From: Arcobacter vandammei
Lineage (GTDB): Bacteria; Campylobacterota; Campylobacteria; Campylobacterales; Arcobacteraceae
Length of the DNA: 64,000 bases
Assembly (NCBI RefSeq): GCF_016106035.1
Contig: NZ_JADKPZ010000013.1
Coordinates: 1 to 64,000 of the forward strand
Direction of reading: 5' to 3'
Numbering within the stretch: the first letter of the stretch is position 1; each line of letters starts with the position of its first letter. This document shows, piece by piece, positions 29,620 through 63,999 of the stretch. Below the pieces are notes generated by a model that saw only the letters and a program-made list of their open reading frames with translations, ran no database searches and was not told the origin of the DNA. The translations under genes and the position numbers were made by a program.

Positions 29620-29672
29620 TTTTATTCCTTTAAAATTCTTAGGGAAGATTGTATCAAGATTGGCTTTAAAAT

Positions 29673-29705
29673 AAAAAAAGCCCAAACCAAAAGGTCTGGG
29701 CTTTT
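29673..29705 (-). terminator. rpsU terminator
   Basis: Read on the minus strand, AAAAGCCCAGACC pairs with GGTTTGGGCTTTT (one mismatch) around TTTT, and a T-run follows. It lies 20 bases after the rpsU stop. Confidence 0.85.
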
Positions 29706-29725
29706 CTGTTTGGAAATAACAAATC

Positions 29726-29938
29726 TTATAATCTTGACTCGTATCTTCTTAACATATATAGTTTTTTCAACATTTTTTTTCTAGCAGAAATTTTTTGCTT
29801 TTTTCTGATTTCAGTCATTGGTTCAAAATATCTTCTAGCTCTTGCTTCAGTAACGATTAGGTTTCTGTCGCATTGTTTTTTAAATCTTCTATACGCTTCG
29901 TCAAACGATTCGTTATCTTTAACTTTAATGCCTGGCAC
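29726..29938 (-). CDS. rpsU: 30S ribosomal protein S21
   Basis: This small basic protein matches bS21 of Campylobacterota over its length ([21 protein letters not shown], ending [15 protein letters not shown]). I place the start at the GTG before CCA-GGC (29938), giving 70 residues, because GAGGG lies nine bases before it and relatives begin MPGIKV. A longer frame from a GTG at 29947 would have no spacing from that site. A TATAAT lies upstream and a terminator downstream, so it is a single-gene unit. Confidence 0.94.
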
Positions 29939-29974
29939 TAAAATCACCCTCTTTCTTTTAAAATTTAGGCTCGG

Positions 29975-29980
29975 ATTATA
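29975..29980 (-). promoter_or_regulatory. Probable -10 box of rpsU
   Basis: On the minus strand TATAAT lies 36 bases before the GTG start of rpsU. Confidence 0.5.
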
Positions 29981-30052
29981 TTTAAAATATTCTTAATATC
30001 TATTTAACCTATCTTTTTATAGAATAAAATATAAATTTTATAAGGATAAACT

Positions 30053-33207: not shown

Positions 33208-33729
33208 TTATTCTATTTTTTTATCTAAATCTACTATTTGCTTATATGTAATATCCCATTTCAGATATTTTTTATCTTTGCTTAAAATAACTTTTGCTTT
33301 TCCACTAGGACAACAATTTGCATCATTTTTTAGAAGATAATGTTCTATAACTTCTAATTTATTATCAACTTTTTTAAAGTCGCTAAGCCCTTTTGCAGAA
33401 AAAACAGGCTCTATATTGACATAAAATTTTTTGGAGAAATCAGGTCTAAAAATTTCGCTTATATAATTTGCAGATGTTCCTGAACCACCATCACACCCAA
33501 TATCTCCAAACCATACAGCATAGTAATACTCTGTTTCGAATATATCTTTACCCAAATATATTATGTCTTCTGGTTTATAAATTTCTCTTTTATCTTCAAA
33601 GCTTGTACCACAAGCTATTGAAGTTGCATAATTTTTTAAAACTTTAAAAATTTCTTTTTTATCTTCTTCTAAATTTGAAGAAAATGCTATATTTACCAAC
33701 AAAGATATTGATATTAAAATTTTAATCAT
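33208..33729 (-). CDS. Unknown exported protein
   Basis: This 173-residue protein begins with a signal peptide (IKILISISLLVNIAFSS). The mature part has several Cys residues (IACGTSF, DIGCDGGSG, NDANCCPSGKAKVIL) that could form disulfides in the periplasm. I do not recognise the family. It is the last gene of a five-gene minus-strand run and overlaps the gene before it by 8 bases. Confidence 0.65.
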   Translation of the reverse strand: MIKILISISLLVNIAFSSNLEEDKKEIFKVLKNYATSIACGTSFEDKREIYKPEDIIYLGKDIFETEYYYAVWFGDIGCDGGSGTSANYISEIFRPDFSKKFYVNIEPVFSAKGLSDFKKVDNKLEVIEHYLLKNDANCCPSGKAKVILSKDKKYLKWDITYKQIVDLDKKIE

Positions 33730-34039
33730 TCATACTTCCTTGTATAAGTTTGTTTATTTCATTGTCTAATTCAATAATTGAATAATTTTTATATTTTTCG
33801 TAAATCATTTTACTATTATTAGATGCATTTGAATGTCTATTTATTCCAGCTATTGATTTATAATTACAAATTTTTGCACTAATACTTCCAGTTGATAAAG
33901 TTTTTGTTTCTTTTGATAATTCTTTACAAAACTTACTTTGTAAACCTCTAGGAAAATCTTTTTCAAATAATATTCTAAATATTTTATATACTTGAAGTTC
34001 AGTTATATTATTCCAACCAGATGCAAATCTATATGACAT
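33722..34039 (-). CDS. Small protein resembling the N-terminal domain of HNH-linked proteins
   Basis: This 105-residue protein has a pattern I know from the N-terminal domain of some HNH endonucleases and accessory-island proteins: a helix with YKIFRILFEKDFPRG, then GSISAKICNYKSIAGINRHSNASNNSKMIYEKY, which resembles the S-x-x-K-L-x-N-F-x-x-L-D and N-A-S parts. The nuclease domain itself is absent. A DNA-binding role is possible but is inference. It lies between a small membrane protein and an exported protein. Confidence 0.55.
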   Translation of the reverse strand: MSYRFASGWNNITELQVYKIFRILFEKDFPRGLQSKFCKELSKETKTLSTGSISAKICNYKSIAGINRHSNASNNSKMIYEKYKNYSIIELDNEINKLIQGSMND

Positions 34040-34063
34040 TTTATTTATATCATTTCGTAAAAT

Positions 34064-61760: not shown

Positions 61761-62129
61761 CTAATTATTTTTATTAAAATGAATTATTGCATTATTGCAA
61801 TTTTCTTTAACTTTAGCTAATCCAAATCTAATTATCCACTCAATTATAGATAGATTAACTCCCTCATAATCGTGTGCAATATAAGTTCTTACATCATAAA
61901 GACCTCGTAAATCCTCTTTATCAAAGAAACTTAAAATCTCTTTCTCATCTTTTATTTTTAATTTATTAAATTGTTCTGCAATTGCAGTTAAATGCATTAA
62001 AATAGCAGGTCTATTTGTAATAATGTCGTTTAGTGCATTTGAAATTGAACCACAATTTATTATAATTTTTTCAATATATTCTATTTTTTCAAGCACTAAA
62101 TATATTTTTGAGATATTTTGATTATACAT
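61761..62129 (-). CDS. HepT-like toxin (HEPN domain)
   Basis: This 122-residue protein has the HEPN RNase signature R-x4-H-x-Y at Arg81, His86 and Tyr88 (RTYIAHDY) within an all-helical fold. HepT toxins cut RNA and are neutralised by MntA. It overlaps the upstream antitoxin gene by 8 bases, the usual order. Confidence 0.85.
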   Translation of the reverse strand: MYNQNISKIYLVLEKIEYIEKIIINCGSISNALNDIITNRPAILMHLTAIAEQFNKLKIKDEKEILSFFDKEDLRGLYDVRTYIAHDYEGVNLSIIEWIIRFGLAKVKENCNNAIIHFNKNN

Positions 62130-62433
62130 AAATTGTTTTGTCTATTATAAATTTTTTTGCAGTTTTACCCATATTTGAACTATCTGCTAAATCAACAGGT
62201 CTTCCAAAGAAAGAACTTATTTCATTTTTTATTTCATTTACTCTATTTATCGCATTAAAACCATATTTTGAAGCAAAAAGTGGTGTAGCTTCAACTAATA
62301 TATCTATATCACTATTCTTTGTGGCTTCATCTTTTGAGTAAGAACCAAAAAGACCTTTAATAATAAAACCCTCTTTGTTATAAACTTCTTTTAACTCTTT
62401 TAGTTTCAAAATAATTGAATTTTTATCAAGCAT
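62122..62433 (-). CDS. MntA-like nucleotidyltransferase antitoxin
   Basis: This 103-residue minimal nucleotidyltransferase has the G-S-x10-D-x-D motif (Gly30, Ser31, Asp42, Asp44) and a downstream PVDLAD segment with the third Asp. MntA antitoxins block HepT by adding AMP to the Tyr of its active site (type VII system). AAGGA precedes the ATG. Confidence 0.85.
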   Translation of the reverse strand: MLDKNSIILKLKELKEVYNKEGFIIKGLFGSYSKDEATKNSDIDILVEATPLFASKYGFNAINRVNEIKNEISSFFGRPVDLADSSNMGKTAKKFIIDKTIYV

Positions 62434-62473: not shown

Positions 62474-62860
62474 TTAATCTCTAATTATTTTTATCAAAAT
62501 ACCATTTTCGCCATCTCTATGAATTATCTCTTTATCTTCTTTATCAAAAAGGTTTTTTAGAAAATTCTTTGGATAAGTGGAGCTTAGATTCTCTTTATTA
62601 AAAACTTCCATATCTTGACATTTAAAAGTGCTTTTACAAACCTTATTTTCATATATTTTCATATCCAAAATAGCAACACCAGCATTAAAAATTTGAACTT
62701 GTGTATAATCTTTGTATTTAAAAATAAAACCTTTATCGTGAAACTTCATATTAGGAGTTTTAAATAAAATTGTTGCACTATTTGAGCTTAATTGTGGCTC
62801 TTTTTGGCTACAACCAGTGATAAAAAATAAAATAATTGCTAAAAAAAGTAAATTTTTGAT
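62474..62860 (-). CDS. Small lipoprotein, apparent ATC start
   Basis: The longest frame with a standard start begins at an ATG at 62749 (91 residues). In the same frame, however, the reading goes on upstream into a typical lipoprotein signal (KNLLFLAIILFFITGCSQ, lipobox ITGC), with no ATG, GTG or TTG before an in-frame stop. AAGGA lies six bases before an ATC codon at 62860, at the ideal start place. I infer a 128-residue lipoprotein that either uses ATC or has a damaged start. The mature part (TQVQIFNAGVAILDMKIYEN, GENGILIKIIRD) is not recognised. Confidence 0.6.
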   Translation of the reverse strand: MKNLLFLAIILFFITGCSQKEPQLSSNSATILFKTPNMKFHDKGFIFKYKDYTQVQIFNAGVAILDMKIYENKVCKSTFKCQDMEVFNKENLSSTYPKNFLKNLFDKEDKEIIHRDGENGILIKIIRD

Positions 62861-62889
62861 AGTAAATCCTTTGTTTAAAAATTTTTAAC

Positions 62890-62925: not shown

Positions 62926-63999
62926 ATGTTAGTACATATTTGTTGTGCTGTTGATAGCCACTATTTTTTAGAAAAAATCCAAGAAGAGTATCCAGATGAG
63001 AAACTTGTAGGATATTTTTATGACCCCAATATTCACCCTTATAGTGAATATAGACTTAGATATTTAGATGTTGAATACTCTTGCAAAAAATTAGGTATTC
63101 CTTTAATTGAAGGCTCTTACAATCTGGAAGAGTGGTTAAAAAAAGTAAAAGGAATGGAGCATTTGCCTGAAAAAGGAGATAGATGTACAGTTTGTTATGA
63201 TGATAGGCTTGATAATAGTGTACAAAAAGCACTTGAATTAGGACATGATAAATTTACAACAACACTTCTAATCTCACCAAAAAAATCTCAAGAAAAGCTT
63301 GATATTATAGGAAATAATTTAGAGAAAAAAACAGGTGTGAAGTTTATTTTCAAAGATTATAGATCTGGAAATGGAATGGAACTTCAAGGAAAAAGAGTAA
63401 AAGAAAATAGCCTTTATAGACAAAACTATTGTGGTTGTCTGTTTGGGCTTACTTCTCAAAGAGAGAACCAAAAAAAACTTATGGATGAGATGTTTAATCC
63501 TATTTCAAATCAAATTCTGCCCGAATCAATAGAAGAAAGATTAGAGCTTTATAAAAAAAGAAACACTCTTGAAGAAGAGCAAAAAGAGTATAAAATCATC
63601 AAACAAAGATTTTTAAATTATAGACTTTTATCTGGAAAAATCGTACTTGAAAAAGAGGCAATTCCATCATATATTTTTGCTTATTCTACAATTTCAAGAA
63701 AAAAAATTGAAGCAAAAGTTGAGTATGAAAAAGATGGAATCTCTTATTTATCAAGAGATGAAGTTAAATTTATTTCAATAGAAACATTTAATAGTTTTGC
63801 AAAAACAGATTATAAAAGTGTAAAAGATTTAATCTATACACCACTAAAGTTTGAAGAAGAATTAAAAGTTAGAAACACTATTTTAAACTCAAGTTTTGAT
63901 TTATCAGCTTTAATTGTTCTTGATGAAATTACAGATAAAAAGTATGAAATTTTTATTGATAGTATTACTTATGAAGATGTAAGGGAGAGTTTGATTTGA
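62926..63999 (+). CDS. queH: Epoxyqueuosine reductase QueH (DUF208)
   Basis: QueH carries out the last step of queuosine tRNA modification in organisms without QueG. The 357-residue protein has the paired Cys of the family: Cys6-Cys7 (HICCAVD), Cys87 and Cys90 (RCTVCYDDR), and a YCGC motif, together with GYFYDPNIHPYSEYRLR. The N-terminal 215 residues cover the domain. The C-terminal 140 residues are an extension seen in some Campylobacterota relatives, with unknown role. The TGA stop falls at the last bases of the window, so the gene is complete. Confidence 0.9.
   Translation: MLVHICCAVDSHYFLEKIQEEYPDEKLVGYFYDPNIHPYSEYRLRYLDVEYSCKKLGIPLIEGSYNLEEWLKKVKGMEHLPEKGDRCTVCYDDRLDNSVQKALELGHDKFTTTLLISPKKSQEKLDIIGNNLEKKTGVKFIFKDYRSGNGMELQGKRVKENSLYRQNYCGCLFGLTSQRENQKKLMDEMFNPISNQILPESIEERLELYKKRNTLEEEQKEYKIIKQRFLNYRLLSGKIVLEKEAIPSYIFAYSTISRKKIEAKVEYEKDGISYLSRDEVKFISIETFNSFAKTDYKSVKDLIYTPLKFEEELKVRNTILNSSFDLSALIVLDEITDKKYEIFIDSITYEDVRESLI

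Follow-up and report, generated by a model that had tools for sequence, protein, structure and literature searches.

The ATC codon at positions 62,860–62,858 is very probably the true start of a real outer-membrane-type lipoprotein gene on the minus strand of the window, the 64,000-nucleotide stretch of Arcobacter vandammei DNA analysed here. Initiation at this codon is likely weak, discriminated against by IF3 and low in output, with the AUH class of codons (AUA, AUC or AUU) held by selection. The features of the locus are as follows.

62,474–62,860, minus strand: lipoprotein gene of 128 codons and a stop, probably distantly HP0838/FapH-like; the frame is open and has matches in 144 of the 150 relatives, and NCBIfam HP0838 hits it weakly (21.3 bits)
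62,858–62,860, minus strand: proposed start codon ATC; ATA, ATC or ATT at 58 orthologous loci and ATG in two clade members
62,867–62,872, minus strand: Shine-Dalgarno sequence AAAGGA, six bases 5' of the ATC; AAAGGA at 57 and AAAGGG at one of the 58 AUH loci
62,810–62,860, minus strand: predicted lipoprotein signal peptide with lipobox ITGC, its Cys being codon 17 (62,812–62,810); Cys invariant in a 48-sequence alignment
62,747–62,749, minus strand: internal ATG, codon 38; first standard start codon found mechanically, with purifying selection upstream of it
62,885–62,887, minus strand: in-frame TAA eight codons 5' of the ATC, read from the frame
62,926–63,999, plus strand: divergent QueH-family gene cut by the window end (PF02677, 205.5 bits)

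The frame between the stops at 62,887–62,885 and 62,476–62,474 comprises 136 open codons (62,884 to 62,474) and contains no ATG, GTG or TTG ahead of 62,749. The order at the locus is AAAGGA (62,872–62,867), TTTACT, ATC (62,860–62,858) and then KNLLFLAIILFFITGC; read down from 62,860, the minus strand gives ATC AAA AAT TTA and so on, encoding IKNLLFLAIILFFITGCSQKEP... with the lipobox ITGC. The preliminary description gave no strand, but its two main readings hold on the minus strand: a lipoprotein signal with ITGC lies in frame ahead of the first ATG, and a Shine-Dalgarno site precedes the ATC by six bases with no standard start in between. Its expectation that the gene is easily annotated as a truncated cytosolic protein was borne out as well, as a mechanical ORF caller yields a 91-residue protein from codon 38, and a start at this internal ATG would lose both the signal peptide and the lipobox. 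An N-terminus free of ATG, GTG and TTG with an AUH codon at Shine-Dalgarno distance, the mark of an infC-type noncanonical start, is thus found here. The divergent arrangement with queH is kept at 56 of the 58 AUH loci. On the other side, a MntA/HepT-like type VII toxin-antitoxin pair adjoins the gene at 61,761–62,433 (minus strand), with scores above the Pfam and below the NCBIfam cut-offs.

Conservation of the start codon and its leader

A search of the 150 relatives and the own genome extended the gene well beyond the window. Within the genus, 30 of 31 genomes have a match (the lone exception is 54% complete), and the comparison of sister genomes proposed in the preliminary description found an AUH codon at the start position in all 30 (AUA 17, AUC 10, AUU 3). 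A sequence error, with ATG in the sister strains, or a private mutation was therefore rejected, and many of these genomes are single-contig assemblies. Of the 88 matched family genomes, 55 carry AUH and 29 a standard codon (ATG 24, TTG 3, GTG 2), while three are ambiguous (L077, L082, L090) and one is masked and unreadable (L060). The start region was read at 133 loci in total (30 and 3 from two protein searches and 100 fetched by coordinate), which correspond to the 88 family genomes, window included, three further loci (L034–L036) and 42 order-level loci. A standard start candidate is present at all 42 order-level loci read; at L148 a contig end truncates the sequence. The 55 family genomes and L034–L036 make up the 58 AUH loci, which represent at most 57 genomes, as L036 and L047 apparently lie on the same contig and encode the same protein. 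The third base of the start at these loci is A in 31, T in 14 and C in 13. The AUH start thus appears to span several genera and is not a private oddity of one strain; its conservation looks like that of a maintained feature of the gene, not of a mutation or a sequencing error.

The AUH rows also largely group together in the protein tree, which has 92 rows, few columns and many weak forks. One group of 59 rows (SH-aLRT 91) consists of 57 AUH rows and two ATG rows (L031 and L039), so that the codon class is conserved across species in 57 of the 59 clade rows, and a single AUH row, L075, falls outside. The AU test did not reject a single AUH origin with L075 placed in the group (p 0.29); the value is 0.0575 when the two ATG rows are omitted. 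Parsimony on this tree requires three changes between AUH and standard codons and 15 among the three AUH codons.

The leader is highly constrained. Positions −12 to −8 read AAAGG at 58 of 58 AUH loci and position −7 is A at 57, giving the AAAGG-N6-ATH layout at every one of them, although these Shine-Dalgarno counts are partly by construction because AUH labels were assigned using the Shine-Dalgarno sequence; the clade total of 57 of 59 is independent of that labelling. The first two start bases are A and T at all 58 loci, whereas positions −4 to −1 vary freely, and the start mostly lies 16 codons before the lipobox Cys. In L031 and L039, ATG occupies exactly the AUH position with the same leader and spacing, so AUG is tolerated there. 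An in-frame standard codon occurs between the AUH codon and the Cys at 13 of the 58 loci, with a Shine-Dalgarno match of at most three bases. A structured leader hiding the start was rejected, as the window leader is no more stably folded than its shuffles (z 0.53). The promoter scan recovered about what chance would give (6 against 4.6 expected). At four other loci, L061, L064 and L067 of genus g14 and L157, a TTG start comes first; the next codon is ATT in L061 and L067 and ATA in L157, which suggests that AUH starts may derive from a start-Ile-Lys beginning after loss of its first codon.

The window was also scanned for further starts of this kind. Of its 64 frames of at least 100 codons retained by a greedy filter, two have their first standard start past codon 21: the lipoprotein gene and a 108-codon frame at 29,670 on the plus strand, which overlaps opposite-strand frames. 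Short frames on both strands at 29,670–29,996 are 96–99% identical to those of a relative, above most genes compared; scanning the window against Rfam and for tRNAs gave nothing at 29,670–29,996 and nothing elsewhere except a 5S rRNA at the left edge. A 134-kb stretch of the relative G002 holds counterparts for 45 window frames, and in 12 of them the alignment takes in codons that precede the first standard start of both copies. These are the lipoprotein frame (44 codons), four frames with an ATG 7–8 codons in, a short frame (29,992) that reaches a GTG after 13 codons, and six short frames whose coordinates place them on longer ones. In a 113-codon frame at 33,725–34,063 on the minus strand, an ATT right after a stop, the sole candidate start with Shine-Dalgarno support, is preceded at six bases by AAAGGA, with an ATG eight codons on; this frame has a partial match in one of the 150 relatives. 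The DNA pattern AAAGGA-N6-ATH-AAR-AA has three matches in the own genome against eight for the reversed pattern, so the bare pattern is no signal alone. Its two other matches were set aside, one lying in a 12-codon frame and one in the interior of a longer frame.

Alternative readings and selection on the codon

It is very improbable that the AUH codon is an internal Ile codon of a protein whose translation begins upstream by way of an unrecognised codon, a stop-codon bypass or a frameshift. The third base does alternate between A, C and U about as fast as in internal Ile codons, and the frame is open further 5' in some rows (55 codons in L033), but a stop codon lies immediately 5' of the AUH codon at four loci (L034, L035, L040, L041) and one codon ahead of it at five (L036, L047, L051, L065, L068), so no in-frame upstream start is possible there. 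The AAAGGA lies ahead of the AUH codon at the usual Shine-Dalgarno distance, and ATG takes the same position in two relatives, both of which argue against an upstream start. Moreover, at 46 of the 58 loci the 40 nt upstream are free of ATG, GTG and TTG in all three frames, and an out-of-frame start followed by a frameshift was rejected for this reason; the remaining 12 have a standard codon in some frame within that distance (ATG in L032, L038 and L066). Translation from the internal ATG, giving a cytosolic protein of 91 residues with the upstream part untranslated, has even less in its favour. Codon 38 is the first standard start, and an ORF caller limited to ATG, GTG and TTG would choose it. 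However, crude dN/dS across ten congeners is 0.07 over codons 17–37 (0.37 over codons 2–16 and 0.10 over codons 38–128), and the segment ahead of the internal ATG therefore appears to be translated and selected. The invariance of the lipobox Cys in the 48 aligned rows, the lack of an ATG at the codon 38 position in several orthologues, and the ATG, TTG or GTG starts 5' of the signal peptide in relatives outside the clade likewise stand against it. The least credible reading is that the start has decayed or been misread in a dying gene. The window genome is admittedly a 56-contig draft, but complete assemblies are among the 30 congeners that share the AUH codon, purifying selection is strong across the entire frame, and the gene is kept in 144 of the 150 relatives. 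Such a decayed or misread start is unlikely because A and T are kept at all 58 loci, the third base alone drifting. The preliminary description had left two choices, that ATC is used or that the start has mutated. As judged from the sequence comparisons, the former is strongly supported by AUH in all 30 matched congeners, the unchanged Shine-Dalgarno sequence and spacing, and AUG at the same place in L031 and L039; the latter is contradicted.

A more serious competitor, though still a doubtful one, accepts the AUH codon as the start but considers it neutral: the strong Shine-Dalgarno sequence would make any AUN codon adequate, and after AUG was lost once in an ancestor the codon would simply have drifted, without any regulatory role. 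The third-base rate at the start does resemble that of neutral columns, with 16 parsimony changes compared to 7–16 at six internal Ile columns and 10–21 at ten fourfold columns. A single origin not being rejected and the two reversions to AUG in L031 and L039 also agree with drift. Changes to G account for 1 of 16 third-base changes at the start and 29 of 154 at the fourfold columns (P about 0.17), so that the third-base test by itself gives no significant sign of AUG being actively excluded. On the other hand, the A and T of the start, the Shine-Dalgarno sequence and the exact spacing are frozen, and across many species the third base has almost never become G, the best choice there. The case for selection on AUH rests on AUG being normally favoured, and AUG is the usual start elsewhere in the window.

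Protein family and predicted fold

The lipoprotein is apparently a distant homologue of HP0838/FapH, the closest family with a name, but is not filed as a member of it. The window protein scores 21.3 bits against NCBIfam HP0838 (NF052372), short of the curated cut-off of 200 bits. The same profile matches 114 of the 150 relatives, none of them above 200 bits; nearly all matched relatives score 20–77 bits, and the best, the order-level relative G146, reaches 196.5 bits. By visual comparison, the profile falls at the query's positions in the 18 genus rows examined, and a genome search with the HP0838 profile gave no match in the own genome. Pfam and PDB sequence searches with the lipoprotein returned nothing. 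Like FapH of Helicobacter pylori, the window protein is a small lipoprotein with a signal peptide of this type and a lipobox Cys, but it is shorter, does not have the C-terminal insert carried by relatives outside the family, and is encoded next to queH, not flgP. Apart from the lipobox Cys, C75 and C81 are invariant across the 48 relatives and perhaps form a disulfide. According to the FapH study (PMC11756786), FapH forms an 18-fold outer-membrane ring at the flagellar motor and protects the outer-membrane barrier, as shown for H. pylori only. By analogy, one may guess at a flagellar role for the window lipoprotein.

The AlphaFold model of the window protein (mdb0756be06b4, pLDDT 81.9) is LolB-like. 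Foldseek placed LolB at ranks 1–3 (E 1.9e-3 to 2.8e-2), and the top five rows of VIA were LolB as well (Z 9.0 to 7.5, the first three being 9.0, 8.2 and 7.9). A second model, of L036, was poor (63.6) and found no LolB. Pfam LolB (PF03550) had no match in the own genome nor in the listed families of 48 members, and LolA is present in the own genome. Passages of two papers report LolB as unidentified in Campylobacterota (PMC12428200, PMC7240156). The predicted LolB-like fold of the lipoprotein is a lead only.

Initiation mechanism and comparison with known systems

From what is established about initiation, the strong Shine-Dalgarno sequence at fixed spacing would place the initiator tRNA (fMet, anticodon CAU) on the AUH codon, where the anticodon would pair properly with the first two bases and badly with the third. 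The third-base mismatch would make initiation weak and IF3-discriminated, and lipoprotein output would consequently be low and limited by translation. Selection would retain the AUH class while being indifferent among A, C and U at the third base, and low output of the lipoprotein may be what it holds. Each motor requires few copies of FapH, the flagellar ring protein to which this lipoprotein is distantly related. IF3 makes initiation complexes unstable unless the codon is ATG, GTG or TTG (PMC5472188), and in vitro, weak third-base pairs such as that of AUU with anticodon CAU yield less output as IF3 increases (PMC10158994).

More tentatively, the AUH codon might be a selected control device that reads out IF3 activity or initiation fidelity, tying an outer-membrane and possibly flagellar component to the state of the translation machinery, with infC itself carrying no AUH start. 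We regard this as possible, with the balance against it. The infC gene of the genus has an apparent conserved UUG start after a Shine-Dalgarno sequence in the loci of 19 of 19 genomes read by eye (e.g., L142), two of 30 loci being unparsed. Thus, the lipoprotein does not stand in a visible IF3 autoregulation circuit.

A conserved noncanonical start is of a known kind, and the lipoprotein gene is a new and broadly conserved case; our literature search found no report of such a start in Arcobacter or in this lipoprotein gene. The A. butzleri genome paper limited ORF prediction to ATG, GTG and TTG (PMC2147049), which fits the start being overlooked. Such rules can convert a lipoprotein into a truncated cytosolic protein family-wide. 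In the literature as covered here, few conserved noncanonical starts have had their biology tested, namely infC and sigR. The lipoprotein gene adds a third conserved start, in which all three AUH codons replace one another across dozens of species. It amounts to a natural experiment in start-codon selection, and it offers a sharp and cheap test of IF3-dependent control outside infC.

The AUU or AUC start of infC is decoded by the initiator tRNA with a third-base mismatch. The E. coli infC gene begins with ATT and that of Streptomyces with ATC; infC is autoregulated, being repressed by IF3 (PMC5472188). The lipoprotein gene resembles infC in an AUH class apparently under selection and a strong Shine-Dalgarno sequence, but the infC product is IF3 itself, which allows autoregulation, whereas the product here is a lipoprotein. 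In 34 Streptomyces, sigR starts with GTC (32) or GTT (2) and is IF3-repressed (PMC5472188). Its genus-wide noncanonical start, variable third base, conserved Shine-Dalgarno sequence and misannotation to standard codons parallel what we observe. In contrast, sigR uses another codon box, encodes a sigma factor and has, in that account, demonstrated IF3 repression, whereas the lipoprotein start extends over several genera, uses all three AUH codons and would involve IF3 by analogy.
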